35,687 nt of DNA from Zoogloeaceae bacterium. Its GTDB lineage: Bacteria > Pseudomonadota > Gammaproteobacteria > Burkholderiales > Rhodocyclaceae. Position numbers and translations under genes: made by a program. Below are positions 4,278 through 35,687 of the stretch, piece after piece. Below the pieces are notes generated by a model that was not told the origin of the DNA, searched no databases, and worked only from the letters and a program-made list of their open reading frames with translations. The stretch spans positions 1 through 35,687 of the forward strand of contig JAITRP010000117.1 in assembly GCA_031288305.1 (NCBI GenBank), written 5' to 3'. Each line of letters opens with the position of its first letter. Within the stretch, counting starts at the first letter, position 1.

Positions 4278-4904
4278 ATGATGCGCACAATGGCGCTGGC
4301 GCTCGTCGCTGCCGGCTTTGGTTTGAATGTCGCGGCGCAGGAAACCGCCACGCCCGCCGATCCCAATGCGGTTCCAATGCTGGTTGGAGCCGTTTGCACA
4401 CAATGCCACGGCGAAACTGGCATTAGCGCCGACCCCGCCAAATATCCGCATCTGTCCGGTCAGGTTCCCGATTACATCATCAAGCAATTGCGCGACTTCA
4501 AGGGGGGGGCGCGCAACGACCCGGAAATGACCGGCATGGCCTACACCGTTAGCACGGATGAAGACGCGCGCGCCATTGCGAACTGGTACGCCAAACAGAG
4601 CGTGACGCCTTCCGCCGCCACGCAGCCTGACCTGATCGAGCGCGGCAAGAAGCTCTGGCGCGCGGGGGACGCCGCCAAGGCTATCCCCGCGTGTTCAGGT
4701 TGTCACGGCGCGTCCGGCCAAGGCTTGCCCGCCCAGTACCCCCGTCTTTCCGGGCAACTTCCGTCTTATCTCGCCCTGCAACTGCAACGTTTCCGCAACG
4801 GCGAGCGCGCCAATGACCCGGAAGGCATGATGCGCGCCATCGCCGAACGGCTCACCGACAACGACATCAAGTCCGTTTCCGAATACGCCAGCGGCTTACG
4901 CTGA
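4278..4904 (+). CDS. Diheme cytochrome c4-type protein
   Basis: Signal peptide MMRTMALALVAAGFGLNVAAQ; two CxxCH motifs (CTQCH, CSGCH); repeated YPxLSGQxPxYxxxQLxxF motif typical of cytochrome c4. Confidence 0.92.
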   Translation: MMRTMALALVAAGFGLNVAAQETATPADPNAVPMLVGAVCTQCHGETGISADPAKYPHLSGQVPDYIIKQLRDFKGGARNDPEMTGMAYTVSTDEDARAIANWYAKQSVTPSAATQPDLIERGKKLWRAGDAAKAIPACSGCHGASGQGLPAQYPRLSGQLPSYLALQLQRFRNGERANDPEGMMRAIAERLTDNDIKSVSEYASGLR

Positions 4905-12472: not shown

Positions 12473-12493
12473 GAAATTTGCCTTTTTTGGTGA

Positions 12494-12845
12494 GCGGCAA
12501 AAAGTAAAAACCCACTTTTTGCCGGTTTGTCTTGGGTTTGAAACCAGGCAAATCCTGGCTTCAAACCGTATAAAAAAACCAACGTGAAACCCATCCGGCC
12601 TGGCGGCCAGTCACGTTGAATCGACGCAATTTTGGCGTGACTGCCTGCCGGAAGCCCCCTGTCCCTTCCCCTTTGTGGGAGAGGATGGCGCAAAGCGCCG
12701 GGAGGGAGCGGCTCAAAAGAGCAAAGCCGCTGAACTGTGGCTTCCCCTGACCCCTCCCCCGCAAGGAGGAAGGGGGACAAAAGCGTTTGCCCTGTCTTCA
12801 GGCATTTTGAATTTCATACGGTTCATTCAGCATGACGGACTACCA
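12494..12845. repeat. Composite family 1 element with 'GTCACGTTGAATCGACGC' module
   Basis: GCGGCAAAAAGTAAAAACCCACTTTTTGCCGG hairpin, GGTTTGAAACCAGGCAAATCCTGGCTTCAAACC palindrome, then a block at 12610-12845 closely matching 28488-28895. Confidence 0.8.
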
Positions 12846-16704: not shown

Positions 16705-17432
16705 TGCTGCTTTGCCTGGATGCGGGCAACAGCCGCCTGAAATGGGGCCTGAGCCAGGAGCGCGCGGGCGGCTGGCAGGGCCAGGGAGCCTTGTCCTGGA
16801 CGGATATCGCCCATCTGCCCCAGGCGCTTGCCGCCGCGGGCGCGGCATCGACGCCACATTCGGCGCGCCTGGCCAGTGTGGTCGGTCGCGAACGGGAAAC
16901 GCTGCTCCGGCGTGTGCTGCAGGCAGCCTATCCGCGCCTTGCGCTGGATGTTGTGCGTAGCGGCGCGGCAGCGGCGGGCGTATGTAACGGCTACAGCGCG
17001 CCGGAAACGCTGGGTGCGGATCGCTGGTGCGCCCTGATTGGCGCGCGCGCGCTGGAAGCGCGTCCCTGCCTGGTCGTCATGGCGGGCACAGCCACTACCG
17101 TGGATAGCCTGGATGCGGCGGGCAATTTCCTGGGCGGTCTGATTCTGCCGGGTTTGCAGATGATGCGAACGGCGCTCATGGAGGGCACGACGCTCTCCCC
17201 CGCGGTCCTGGGCGCGCATCTTCCTTTTCCCCGCAATACGGCGGACGCGATTGCCAGCGGTTGCCTGGAAGCTCAGGCAGGCGCCATCGAACGCGCCTTC
17301 CTGCGTTTGCCCGATGCCGCCTGTTGCCTTCTTTCCGGCGGCGCGGCGCCAACGCTGCTGCCGCTGCTCGCCGCGCTGCCCGCGCGCCATGTTCCCTGCC
17401 TAGTGCTGGAAGGTTTGCGCCGGATGGAGTAG
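16704..17432 (+). CDS. coaX: Type III pantothenate kinase
   Basis: MLLCLDAGNSRLKWGL, LGADRWCALIGARAL, MAGTATTVDSLDAAGNFLGGLILPGLQMM; overlaps birA. Confidence 0.94.
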   Translation: MLLCLDAGNSRLKWGLSQERAGGWQGQGALSWTDIAHLPQALAAAGAASTPHSARLASVVGRERETLLRRVLQAAYPRLALDVVRSGAAAAGVCNGYSAPETLGADRWCALIGARALEARPCLVVMAGTATTVDSLDAAGNFLGGLILPGLQMMRTALMEGTTLSPAVLGAHLPFPRNTADAIASGCLEAQAGAIERAFLRLPDAACCLLSGGAAPTLLPLLAALPARHVPCLVLEGLRRME

Positions 17433-17433
17433 A

Positions 17434-17668
17434 AACGTCAAAACCTACTTTTTGCCCGGTTCAGTCAGCAAAAAAGGACAGGCAAAGCCTGCCTTTTCTG
17501 GGGTAAAGGCAACGCAACCCACTACCACCTGCACGGTACTGTAGGGGCGCACTGCGCGCGCCCGTCAGCCGTCACGCGGCGGATGATTTGCGGGCGCAGA
17601 GCGCTCCTATAACCACCATAAGGCCGAAAGCCGCGCAAAAAAAGCGGAGGGTTGCTTTTTGCCGCTTC
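17434..17668. repeat. Two-ended family 1 element
   Basis: Left AACGTCAAAACCTACTTTTTGCCCGGTT right after the coaX stop; right GCGCAAAAAAAGCGGAGGGTTGCTTTTTGCCGC; internal palindromes GGACAGGCAAAGCCTGCC, GTAAAGGCAACGCAACCCACTACC, TAGGGGCGCACTGCGCGCGCCC. Confidence 0.8.
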
Positions 17669-20749: not shown

Positions 20750-20829
20750 TCAGAGTCAGAGAAAGACGATTATAGGGAGGATGCGAGATGGCGTCAACGA
20801 TCAGAAGAAGGCAAGGGAAACCCATTACC

Positions 20830-21043
20830 GTCCGGTCATAGGGGCGCACTGTGCACGCCCCTATGACCGGACGGACGGGTAGTGGGTTACGTTGTCTTTA
20901 TTCCAAAAAAGGCAGGCTTTGCCTGTCTTTTTTGGAATATGAAACCGGCACAAGGCCGAAGGCTGGTCTGGCGAAGCCAAATGCGGCTTTGCTCTTGCAG
21001 GTTGCAAAGCCGCGCAAAAAGTAGGTTTTCATTTTTTGACGTC
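20830..21043. repeat. Family 1 mosaic repeat with boundary hairpin at right end
   Basis: GGTCATAGGGGCGCACTGTGCACGCCCCTATGACC palindrome, TAGTGGGTTACGTTGTCTTTATTCCAAAAAAGGCAGGCTTTGCCTGTCTTTTTTGGAAT, GGCTGGTCTGGCGAAGCC, then GCGCAAAAAGTAGGTTTTCATTTTTTGACGTC; abuts ccmB 3' end. Confidence 0.8.
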
Positions 21044-23461: not shown

Positions 23462-24319
23462 GTGTCTGCTCTGGTTTCCCCGCGTTTCGATTTGCATGTG
23501 CATTCCACGGCTTCGGATGGGCTGTTCACGCCGGAGGCGGTGGCGGCACGCGCGAAAGCGCGGGGGCTGGATGGGTTGGCATTGACCGATCACGACAGCG
23601 TGGCGGGGCTTGCCGCGGCGCGGCGGCAGGCGGCGGCGGAAGACCTGGTCTTCATCAATGGCGTGGAAATTTCCGTCGAATGGCAAGATACGCCCATACA
23701 CATCGTCGGGCTGGGCTTCGATGCGGCGCATCCGGGTCTGCTGGCGGGCTTGAAGACGACGCAGGATGGACGGCTGGAGCGGGCGCGACGCATGGACGCG
23801 GCATTGGCGGCGGCGGGCATTGCCGGTACGCTTGCCGGCGCGCTGCGGCACACGGCGCATCCGGCGCAGATTTCGCGCGCCCATTTTGCCCGCCATCTGG
23901 TGGAAATCGGCCTCTTTGCCGATACGGGCAAAGTATTCGAACAGTACCTGACGCCGGGAAAACCTGGCTACGTGCCGCATCGCTGGGCGACGCTCGCCGA
24001 GGCCGTCGGCTGGATACGCGCGGCAGGCGGCGTGGCGGTGGTGGCGCATCCGGGACGCTACGAAATCTCCAGCGGGCAGATGCGCGTGTTCCTGGGCGAG
24101 TTTCGCGATCTGGGCGGCGAGGCAATCGAAGTTTCCTCCGGCAGTCATGTGCCGGCGCATATGCGCCGTTTCGCGCGGCTGGCGCGATCATTCGGTTTTC
24201 ACGCCTCGCAGGGTTCGGACTTTCATGGCGGCGCCGGAGCGGATCTGGGCGGATTCGCGCCGCTGCCGGAAGACTTGCCGCCCGTCTGGCGCTTATTGAA
24301 TGGGGACGTCAAAAAGTGA
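23462..24319 (+). CDS. PHP-domain phosphoesterase (RNase AM / TrpH-like)
   Basis: GTG start; FDLHVHSTASDGLFTPEAVAARAKARGLDGLALTDHDSVAGL; VVAHPGRY; GSDFHG. C-terminal GDVKK* is encoded by repeat sequence. Confidence 0.92.
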   Translation: MSALVSPRFDLHVHSTASDGLFTPEAVAARAKARGLDGLALTDHDSVAGLAAARRQAAAEDLVFINGVEISVEWQDTPIHIVGLGFDAAHPGLLAGLKTTQDGRLERARRMDAALAAAGIAGTLAGALRHTAHPAQISRAHFARHLVEIGLFADTGKVFEQYLTPGKPGYVPHRWATLAEAVGWIRAAGGVAVVAHPGRYEISSGQMRVFLGEFRDLGGEAIEVSSGSHVPAHMRRFARLARSFGFHASQGSDFHGGAGADLGGFAPLPEDLPPVWRLLNGDVKK

Positions 24320-24570
24320 AAGGCTACTTTTTGCCGGTTCGGCCAGCAAAAAAGGGCAAGCAAAGCTCGCCCTTTTTTGGTGTAAAGGCAAGGCAACCCA
24401 CTGCCTGTCCGCGCGATCCTGGATCCTGTAGGGACGCGCTGCGTGCGCCCCTGCGACAACCGCACCGCCCGCGCTGGTTTTTCGTTGGTTTTGCACGGTT
24501 TGAAGCCAGGCTTTGCCCGGTTTCAAACCCCGAAATAAACCGGAAGTAGGTTTTCACTTTTTGACGTATA
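24304..24570. repeat. Best-preserved family 1 element with inverted terminal hairpins
   Basis: Left GACGTCAAAAAGTGAAAGGCTACTTTTTGCCGG; right CCGGAAGTAGGTTTTCACTTTTTGACGTA (near-perfect inverted copy); internal palindromic modules shared with 17434-17668 and 31320-31600. Confidence 0.9.
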
Positions 24571-27068: not shown

Positions 27069-27106
27069 AAGCGGCAAAAAAGCAGGTTTTTACTTTTTGA
27101 CGTACA
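27069..27106. terminator. Single family 1 boundary hairpin between convergent trpS and queC
   Basis: GCGGCAAAAAAGCAGGTTTTTACTTTTTGACGTACAG starts at the trpS stop and covers the last codons (YVKK*) of queC. Confidence 0.8.
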
Positions 27107-28175: not shown

Positions 28176-28197
28176 CGTTGCCTCCAGGAAGTAGTGT

Positions 28198-29008
28198 ACG
28201 GCAAAAAGTTAAACCCTGCTTTTTATCGAGTAAGTCAGGCGCAATGAAAAACAGAGAATACTGTCAATAATCTATCCCCAACGAAGCGCGCCAAACTTCC
28301 TCCCTCCCCTGCTGGAACCGAAGGCGGAAGGACAGCCGCGGGCTGGTCTGGCGAAGCCAGATGCGGCAAAGCCGCGCACAAGGGGAGGGCAGGAGAGCAG
28401 GCGTCAGCGCTCCGATGCAAGCCGCCTCGCCGCAATCCCTCTTGTCAGGTGAGAAGAAAACCGCGCGCCTTTGCGCCCTAGTAGCCCGTCACGTTGAATC
28501 GACGCGATTTTGGCGTGACTGCCTGCCGGAAGCGCCCTGTCCCTCTCCCCCTTGTGAGGGAGGGCTTGCACCCTGCAAGGGGAGCGGCTCAAAAGAGCAA
28601 AGCCGTTGAACCGTGGCTTCCCCTCTCCCCTGACCCCTCCCCCGCAAGGAAGGAGGGGGAAAAAGCGTTTGCTCTGTCTTCAGGCACTTTGAGTTTCATC
28701 GTAAAACTAACTCCGGTTTGAAATCCCGCCCTTCAGGGCGGTGCGAAGGTCGAAACCCCGGCCTGAAGGCCGGGGGATCAATCCGTAGCCATTGGGGAGG
28801 GGAGAGAAACCCCTTCCCAATGGAGTTAAACCGGCAGCCCTGAAGGGCTGTCGCTAATTTCTTGCTAGGGTTCATTCAACATGACGAACTACTAGGATCG
28901 TGCGGATGGGTAGTGGGTTTTCTTGCATTTACTCCAAAAAAGGGCGAGCTACGCTTGCCATTTTTTGCTGACTGAACCGGCAAAAAGCGGGTTTTTACTT
29001 TTTGCCGC
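28198..29008. repeat. Large composite family 1 element with nested family 2 copy C
   Basis: Left TACGGCAAAAAGTTAAACCCTGCTTTTTATCGAG; right GGCAAAAAGCGGGTTTTTACTTTTTGCCGCC touching the queE stop (TAG at 29009-29011 on minus strand); internal block 28488-28895 matches 12610-12845. Confidence 0.8.
28698..28866 (-). repeat. Multi-hairpin palindromic element (family 2), copy C, longest form
   Basis: Reverse complement of copies A/B but with two separate terminal hairpins (CCGCCCTGAAGGGCGG and CCCCGGCCTTCAGGCCGGGG) instead of one fused hairpin. Confidence 0.9.
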
Positions 29009-29653
29009 CTACCTCCCCTGCATGTTACCCCAGAGTTGTTTGTGCAATGGTAACTGAAAGCGCGCTTCCAGACCGTCGGCGAGGATCCATTCCGCCAGTT
29101 TCACGGGGGATTGCAGGCCATGCGCCGGGGAAAAGAATACCGGACAGCGCGCCGGAAACGGGCGCTCTGCCATTTTCGCGCGTGCCCAGTCATAATCCGC
29201 GCGGTCGGCGATGATGATTTTGAGTTCATCCCTGGGCGTGAGCAAGGCGAGATTTTCCCAGCGGTTCTTGTCCGCTTCGCCAGACGATGGCGTCTTGATA
29301 TCGACGATGCGCGCCACGCGCGCGTCCACGCCGCCAATGGCGAGCGCGCCGGATGTTTCCAGGCAAACTTCATAGCCCGCGTCGCACAGCGCCGCAAGCA
29401 GGACAAGACAGCGCTTCTGCGCCAGCGGCTCGCCGCCCGTGACGCAGATGTGCCGGGCAGGCCAGCGGCGCGCGGCGGCGAGGATCTCGTCTATCGTCAT
29501 GTCCTCGCCGCCGGAAAACGCATACGTCGTATCGCACCAACGGCAACGCAGCGGACACCCGGTCAGGCGAACGAACACGCTGGGCAAGCCCGCGCGCGAA
29601 GCTTCGCCCTGCAGGGAGAAAAAAAGCTCATGTACCCGCAGAGGGGCGCGCAT
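29009..29653 (-). CDS. queE: 7-carboxy-7-deazaguanine synthase (radical SAM)
   Basis: MRAPLRVHELFFSLQGEASRAGLPSVFVRLTGCPLRCRWCDTTYAF (CxxxCxxC), VTGGEPLAQ. ATG at 29653 chosen; the ORF extends further upstream into repeat sequence. Confidence 0.95.
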   Translation of the reverse strand: MRAPLRVHELFFSLQGEASRAGLPSVFVRLTGCPLRCRWCDTTYAFSGGEDMTIDEILAAARRWPARHICVTGGEPLAQKRCLVLLAALCDAGYEVCLETSGALAIGGVDARVARIVDIKTPSSGEADKNRWENLALLTPRDELKIIIADRADYDWARAKMAERPFPARCPVFFSPAHGLQSPVKLAEWILADGLEARFQLPLHKQLWGNMQGR

Positions 29654-29662
29654 GGATGTGTG

Positions 29663-29795
29663 CGATGTGTACGTCAAAAAGTGAAACCCCTGCTTTTTGT
29701 GCGGCTTTTCCGCATCTGGCTTCGCCAGACCAGCCTTCGGCCTTGTGCCGGATAAATTTGGGGTTGAAGGCAAAGCAAATCTTCGCCTTCAACCC
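29663..29795. repeat. Family 1 element, left boundary hairpin plus modules
   Basis: GTACGTCAAAAAGTGAAACCCCTGCTTTTTGTGCGGC, CTTCGCCAGACCAGCCTTCGG, GGTTGAAGGCAAAGCAAATCTTCGCCTTCAACC. Confidence 0.8.
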
Positions 29796-29932
29796 AGCAA
29801 GAAATTAGCGGCAGACCTTCAGGGCTGCCGGTCTAACGTCATTGGGGAGGAGTTTCTCTCCTCTCCCCAATGGCTACGGATTGATCCCCCGGCCTTCAGG
29901 GCGGGGTTTCAAAACGGAGTTGGTTTTACGAT
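29796..29932 (+). repeat. Multi-hairpin palindromic element (family 2), copy B
   Basis: AGCAAGAAATTAGCGGCAGACCTTCAGGGCTGCCG...CATTGGGGAGGAG...CTCTCCCCAATG...CCCCCGGCCTTCAGGGCGGGGTTTC...TTTTACGAT. Confidence 0.9.
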
Positions 29933-31319: not shown

Positions 31320-31600
31320 AGCGGGAAAAAGTGAAAACCCACTTTTTCCCGGGTTAATCAGGGTTTGAAGGCAAAGCAAAGTTTCGCCTTCAAACCGTGA
31401 AAAAGCAACGAAAAAACCAGCGCGATCCGCATGGTTCTCGTAGGGACGCACACGGCGCGCCCCTGCGACCGGTGTTCAGACCGGATGGGCGGCAGCAGTG
31501 GGTTTTCGTTGCCTTTCCCCCAAAAAAGGACGAGCTTTGCTTGCCCTTTTTTGCTGATCTGAACCGGCAAAAAGCAGGTTTTTGCTTTTTTGACGCCTAC
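31320..31600. repeat. Two-ended family 1 element between tolB and pal
   Basis: Left GGGAAAAAGTGAAAACCCACTTTTTCCC; right GGCAAAAAGCAGGTTTTTGCTTTTTTGACGCC overlapping the tolB stop; internal GGTTTGAAGGCAAAGC..CGCCTTCAAACC, TAGGGACGCACACGGCGCGCCCCT, CAGTGGGTTTTCGTTGCC, CCAAAAAAGGACGAGC..GCCCTTTTTT. Confidence 0.88.
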
Positions 31601-32883: not shown

Positions 32884-32920
32884 GATCACCACGACAAAAG
32901 AAAATCAAAGTCCGTATTCT

Positions 32921-32992
32921 ACGTTCAGAAGACGGAGGACAGAAGACAGAATGCTCGCTGCGCTCGCGTGTGGTCTGTCTTCCGTCCCCTGA
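32921..32992. repeat. Family 3 heptad-like repeat with GCTCGCTGCGCTCGC palindrome
   Basis: AGAAGACGGAGGACAGAAGACAGAATGCTCGCTGCGCTCGCGTGTGGTCTGTCTTCCGTC between tolB and the EI gene. Confidence 0.8.
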
Positions 32993-35412: not shown

Positions 35413-35600
35413 GAGATTCTAAGGGATCGGGGGATCAGAGGACAGAGGGCAGGGCGGCGCTTTGCGCCTTTGTAGTCTGTAGTCTGTGGGAACCTGCGGA
35501 GCACAGCATGATAAACACGCGGCCACGGACTACGGAATACAGACCACAAGGCGAGCGCAGCGAGCGTCCTGTCTTCTGTCTTCCGTCTTCCGGTCGGTGG
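35413..35600. repeat. Family 3 repeat, inverted double copy
   Basis: Left arm GATCAGAGGACAGAGGGCAGGGCGGCGCTTTGCGCCTTTGTAGTCTG; right arm reverse complement GGAAGACGGAAGACAGAAGACAGGACGCTCGCTGCGCTCGCCTTGTGGTCTG. Confidence 0.75.
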
Positions 35601-35687
35601 ATGCGGGCGATTTTGACGCTTTTGTCCTGGGCTTGGACGACTTCCACGGTAACGCCGTGAAGTTTCAGGCTGACGCGGGTTTCGGGG
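35435..35687 (-). CDS. C-terminal fragment of a gene entering from the right, possibly a HlyC/CorC-type transporter domain
   Basis: ...PETRVSLKLHGVTVEVVQAQDKSVKIARIHRP then repeat-encoded EDGRQKTGRSLRSPCGLYSVV...; open to the window edge. Confidence 0.4.
   Translation of the reverse strand, partial: PETRVSLKLHGVTVEVVQAQDKSVKIARIHRPEDGRQKTGRSLRSPCGLYSVVRGRVFIMLCSAGSHRLQTTKAQSAALPSVL

Follow-up and report, generated by a model that had tools for sequence, protein, structure and literature searches.

A REP-like head-to-head dimer of a two-hairpin unit at gene borders of a Zoogloeaceae genome

What kind of sequence separates the PHP-domain gene from the Sua5 gene at positions 24307-24566 of the 35,687-nt stretch of Zoogloeaceae bacterium DNA analysed here (the window), and how did it come to lie there? 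A preliminary description took it for an undescribed mosaic of separate palindromic modules between inverted hairpin ends, and for a mobile or modular element rather than simple terminators. We find that it is one of more than 100 genome copies of a small hairpin-ended repeat, and that this repeat is a REP-like head-to-head dimer of a ~95-nt two-hairpin unit. The bacterial data for the species come from MAGs throughout: the source MAG (2.72 Mb in 224 contigs) is 90% complete and that of the sister 62% complete, and about 40% of the source genome was sampled in sequence.

The unit consists, in this order, of a hairpin T (CG[T/G]C-AAAAAGTRAAAACCYACTTTTT-GCCG), a hairpin S and a conserved tail, and two such units are joined with their T hairpins outermost and their tails toward the centre. 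The left T occupies 24307-24336 on the forward strand and reads CGTC AAAAAGT GAAAGGCT ACTTTTT GCCG; it is followed on the same strand by S at 24347-24379 (AAAAAAGGGC...GCCCTTTTTT), a bidirectional terminator-like hairpin with A6/T6 arms, and by the tail at 24380-24399 (TAAAGGCAAGGCAACCC; consensus TAAAGGCAACGMAA). Nested in the spacer at 24428-24450, also on the forward strand, is module D, a GTAG-REP-like hairpin in which GTAG precedes the palindrome GGGACGCGC..GTGCGCCC. The right unit lies on the reverse strand, with its tail at 24477-24493 (reverse complement AAAACCAACGAAAAACC), S at 24497-24529 (GGTTTGAAGCCAGG...GGTTTCAAACC) and T at 24537-24566, an inverted copy of the left T from whose stem 4 nt are deleted (CCGGAAGTAGG versus the consensus CCGGCAAAAAGTGG). 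The ends are inverted hairpin copies at the coordinates first proposed, and the element folds far better than its shuffles (z = -7.9). The upstream PHP-domain gene (23462-24319) ends inside the left T, which supplies its TGA at 24317-24319 of the forward strand.

The relationship between the two halves was revealed by genomes of another bacterial family (G133 and G088), which contain 14 copies of a two-hairpin unit and in which single units (T-S-tail) stand alone. These copies comprise a T hairpin with the invariant core AAAAGTRAAAACCTACTTT, an A/T-rich linker, hairpin S and a tail ending near CRACGAAA. The pairing of both hairpins is kept while the stem sequence changes: we counted 46 double-change cells versus 13.6 expected from shuffles, a number reached by 0 of 500 shuffles, with slid controls giving at most 13. 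A covariance model (R1) built solely from these 14 units matches both halves of the element, at 24305-24399 on the forward strand (E 5.4e-8) and at 24477-24568 on the reverse strand (E 2.3e-7), the E-values here and below being rough owing to a short calibration. It also matches both halves of 31320-31597 and units at 12493, 17425, 20884, 28197 and 28915, and gave one weak match in 228 kb of element-poor relatives. Because a model from another family recognises both halves, two module types of the repeat, B and F, prove to be versions of hairpin S, and the element to be a head-to-head dimer; modules unrelated by sequence thus become recognisable as one structure. The first and last modules of the preliminary description, B at 24347-24379 and F at 24497-24529, are not separate palindromes but two versions of one hairpin; what looked like a mosaic is a two-hairpin unit joined head to head with a second one, and some copies enclose a GTAG-type palindrome as well. 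B modules lie within 330 bp of a T in 68 of 73 cases, and all 41 F modules are near a T.

With up to three mismatches allowed, 241 T hairpins were found genome-wide, compared with none for the reversed control pattern; 233 hairpins were catalogued in 1.07 Mb of the source genome drawn from T-bearing contigs. Among close T neighbours in this 1.07 Mb (at most 600 bp apart), 56 of 61 face inward, 2 outward and 3 are in tandem, and thus the ends are kept as a pair. The CGTC foot is the commonest (~54%), while in ~40% of T hairpins the foot is CGGC, which pairs with GCCG; the stem, AAAAAGTA/TACTTTTT, is of the 8-9 bp kind with A-T first and second pairs, the loop is 6-8 nt long with the consensus RAAAACCY, and the stem is followed by GCCGG. 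The sizes of inward pairs cluster at ~200, ~255 and ~300 bp, module D being absent from the first class, single in the second and paired in the third. D is a GTAG-tagged palindrome at one common internal site of composite copies; of 86 D hairpins in the two sister genomes, 80 are no more than 330 bp away from a T, and D is absent from one sister and present in the other at the same locus (L228 versus L205). Its presence or absence at one locus between sisters, together with its nearly constant proximity to T, suggests that composite copies were amplified whole, and an independent dispersal of D as a GTAG REP was rejected as the main story given the 80 of 86 hairpins near a T. About 10 nt outside each T are C-poor and carry a weak GNAAR motif beside CG at both ends, which may reflect a preference at insertion or belong to the end itself in degenerate form. 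A reading of this purine-rich flank (GNAAR|CG) as a ribosome-binding site was rejected for the source genome because the flank runs into the element from both sides.

Within the window, the recurrences noticed earlier were recovered at 17433-17664, 20808-21041, 28199-29007 and 31322-31595. The last belongs to a second full dimer (31320-31597), whose left T (31322) carries a compensated stem change, GGGAAAAAGT..ACTTTTTCCC. The covariance model and locus comparison identify a dimer with its interior filled by two other repeat families at 28197-29009, where the orthologous site is 323 bp long in the sister and empty in four relatives, and a degraded dimer at 17425-17664, where the sister has an intact copy of ~310 bp with a D pair. 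The copy at 20808-21041 is partial, is devoid of the left T and adjoins a tRNA. Half or minimal copies had been overlooked: a single unit (T-S-tail) at 12493-12586 on the forward strand, followed by another repeat family; a minimal lone T hairpin at 27072-27102 on the reverse strand, between two convergent genes; and a forward-strand copy at 29672-~29975 with its left T intact and its right end replaced by another repeat, whereas the sister copy at that site has kept both of its ends. The flanks of 27072-27102 are found on different contigs in G010, G013, G011, G015 and G016, and the T hairpin may mark a rearrangement breakpoint.

The copies lie close behind genes, at a median distance of 8 nt from gene 3' ends and ~150 nt from 5' ends, these context counts being approximate because the gene calls are crude (coding fraction 0.66). 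The statement that the modules are always intergenic is nearly correct, with 8 of 175 sites falling within crudely predicted ORFs, and at 41 of 175 sites the adjacent gene terminates within the T hairpin, its stop codon almost always lying at AAAAAGTAA or AAAAAGTGA. By supplying stop codons, the repeats rewrite gene ends.

That the element was inserted is apparent from orthologous sites. The locus between the PHP-domain and Sua5 genes is free of the element in relatives, and at ~15 loci tested, including this one, it is missing from one to four same-genus genomes (G013, G011, G015 and G016), the gap at empty sites being mostly a few to ~30 nt and at most 73 nt. Flank identity to these genomes is ~85%, and exact insertion junctions are for this reason uncertain by several nucleotides. 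Comparison of the length of host sequence at filled and empty sites revealed no duplication, and direct repeats of at least 3 nt flanked the ends in 0 of 76 pairs. In the sister genome (G010), whose coding flanks are ~91% identical, all 14 sites tested in one direction of comparison and 16 of the 18 tested in the reverse direction are shared, and neither of the two remaining sites is cleanly empty; neither a clean presence/absence difference between the sisters nor a recent insertion polymorphism was found. Since the sister has the sites and the other relatives are without them, the burst is placed before the split from the sister and after the split from G013; an ancestral burst at gene borders has been followed by apparent quiet. 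The preliminary suggestion of mobility is therefore borne out as to insertion, which is ancestral, but not as to any clean difference between the sisters, and the claim that the copies are more than simple terminators stands, as they behave like a non-autonomous element that was inserted and whose ends form a pair. Neither of the two outcomes named there as refuting mobility, unpaired ends or copies confined to shared orthologous positions, was observed.

When public genomes were scanned with the pattern of the ends, nearly all matches fell on MAG contigs named Zoogloeaceae bacterium Nm470_bin6, and a few on contigs of Azoarcus sp. Nm470_bin107 and Burkholderiales bacterium Cf509_bin15; the isolate names of the nearest named relatives suggest termite-gut samples. 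Other members of the genus have low copy numbers, and the spread across the order is patchy, with one to four matches in each of 4 other genomes among 399 sampled. NCBI assigns Zoogloeaceae to the Rhodocyclales. The two-hairpin unit is not confined to this family but is present in others and in phages. Among viral contigs, a scan for the exact core picked out two with T-S units (covariance-model E 1e-9 to 3e-16), located in gaps of a head/tail gene cluster at 4553-4811 and 6681-6776 of L349 and at 4534-4630 and 5958-6073 of L350. A unit is carried by 4 of 75 loci with a related coat gene, all in closely related phages, and in all 4 carriers it directly follows this major head protein gene. Between L351 and L352, whose coat proteins are 98% identical, the loop is the same and the outer stem is wholly different yet complementary, a change that could reflect template-switch correction, compensatory selection or replacement by a new copy. 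Plasmids and named phages gave no match to the element.

The nearest known kind of sequence is the head-to-head dimer of CGTC-tagged REPs, an orphan class without a transposase, most members of which are arranged in such dimers around a structured spacer (Di Nocera et al. 2013, PMC3733652). The likeness is partial in the CGTC outer foot (altered tags are also listed for these REPs) and extends to A-T first pairs of a ~8-bp stem, tags on the outside with head-to-head dimers predominant, structured spacers (two stem-loops in the dimers of A. tumefaciens), a position near gene 3' ends and the lack of a linked transposase. The differences are a loop of 6-8 nt versus 4-5 nt, a GCCGG tail instead of 3 unpaired nucleotides, mostly CCA, the ~40% of feet that read CGGC and pair, a spacer of ~130-230 bp in which each half is a two-hairpin unit with a tail, and a CGTC tag that is not conserved in family f3 or in the phage units. 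The definitions of the four published CGTC families thus exclude the element, though it works as their members do; it is undescribed as a family, while its kind was already known. It shares with REPINs and BIMEs served by RAYT (TnpA_REP) the arrangement of two inverted hairpins as one mobile unit, extragenic location, high copy number and solitary remnants (PMC3116915, PMC8266576), and with GTAG REPs, whose ends can provide stop codons (PMC3733652), the supply of stop codons by its T ends. Identity with REPINs was rejected, as T has the foot CG[T/G]C and no GTAG tag, which occurs solely on module D, and no RAYT gene was found in the 90% complete source MAG; the internal region, with hairpins of its own, is also longer. 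MITEs, among them Coxiella QMITE2 with its internal GTAG REP, resemble the element in their inverted ends, lack of coding capacity, nested GTAG palindrome (here D) and mostly 3' untranslated or intergenic location (PMC5896051), in contrast to which the ends here are structured as hairpins.

We regard it as probable that the repeat is a REP-like non-autonomous mobile palindromic element, of which the head-to-head dimer is the mobile form and which a hairpin-recognising enzyme would move in trans. A trans-acting single-strand transposase of this sort is favoured because the ends are hairpins, insertion leaves no duplication, the pairs are head-to-head and the loops are constant. Recognition would take place on T hairpins in single-stranded DNA, such as that of the replication fork, with the foot and the constant loop AAAACCY as its signals. 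The enzyme, presumably of the HUH/Y1 type by analogy with RAYT and IS200/IS605 and supplied in trans, would cut at the foot and join the dimer between genes. A copy that lands within the final codons of a gene or immediately beyond them would survive because T gives an in-frame TAA or TGA and S serves as a terminator-like hairpin in both directions. The enzyme may have been lost or may be missing from both MAGs, the copies would be decaying in place, and lone T hairpins and half units may be the remnants. In these incomplete MAGs, neither a RAYT nor any other transposase was found to adjoin T hairpins or to lie between them, and inward T pairs 450-5000 bp apart in 1.3 Mb enclose ordinary genes with no recognisable transposase (the longest ORF was inspected). 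The Y1_Tnp profile gave four partial matches in the source genome and none in the sister (MAGs 90% and 62% complete); as RAYT candidates the four were rejected, since they look like IS200-type fragments and are not flanked by T pairs.

A MITE, that is, a deletion derivative of an IS with ~36-bp terminal inverted repeats moved by a DDE transposase in trans, would also account for paired inverted ends, uniform size classes, high copy number, the lack of coding capacity and empty sites. This origin is nevertheless unlikely: a target duplication was seen in 0 of 76 pairs, each end is a conserved hairpin backed by a second, homologous one and lone single units occur in another bacterial family, neither of which is predicted for a DDE derivative, and no parental IS was found among the inward T pairs of 1.3 Mb. 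A typical MITE was rejected because no duplication was seen in these pairs and no parent was found in this sequence. It is also conceivable that the hairpins matter and mobility does not, the units being cis-acting RNA elements (terminators, mRNA end protectors or processing sites) under selection, as the strong pair covariation, the median distance of 8 nt from gene 3' ends and the phage copies in gaps of the head/tail cluster, once after the major head protein gene in each of four related phages, would lead one to expect. We consider this quite improbable, given that the same borders exist without units in same-genus genomes, that the interior varies freely at one locus between sisters and that Rfam yielded no match above any gathering score; in G133, moreover, units point with as well as against the direction of transcription, and this speaks against a strand-specific RNA role being the main reason that they exist.

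The repeats might instead be made or spread by an IS110/IS1111 recombinase, IS1111 being known to target REPs (PMC5896051). The source genome has four matches to genes of this family (on C102, C156, C37 and C145), several of them inside or beside T-bearing, repeat-filled gaps, but other repeats separate the IS110 copies from the T hairpins, and the genes for this reason have the appearance of passengers; the 1.9-kb locus of the C156 copy is devoid of T hairpins. IS110 was accordingly rejected as the autonomous partner, and we hold this explanation to be very improbable. A further reading goes beyond the REP-like mobile element and is doubtful, if less so: the units would form a distinct class of structured mobile DNA, an invariant-loop two-hairpin unit present in at least three bacterial families and in phages, inserted at gene borders without target duplication, and with outer stem arms that are rewritten between copies and yet remain complementary, even in phages with 98% identical coat proteins. 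If this were true, a hairpin-templated insertion or repair would be tied to movement, and the mobiliser would be neither RAYT nor a known transposase. With this family, the question of the orphan CGTC REPs gains a test system with defined ends, ~15 empty sites, a datable burst, a cross-family covariance model and phage copies in which gain and loss can be followed.

Other repeats accompany the element in the window. A second abundant family (CCCCGGCCTTCAGG...) is present at 28694-28869, 29793-29910 and 502-614, with inverted copies 92% alike, and has dozens of copies in G013 and G015; similar sequence near an IS200-like transposase in G011 may indicate a non-autonomous element derived from IS200/IS605. 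A third family is found at 12596-12840 and 28474-28690 (88% alike), and at 28694 the second family is inserted into the third, a nested insertion within the T dimer. Finally, a GACAGAAGACGG-type repeat forms inverted 56-nt copies at 32912-32967 and 35551-35606, which are 82% alike.
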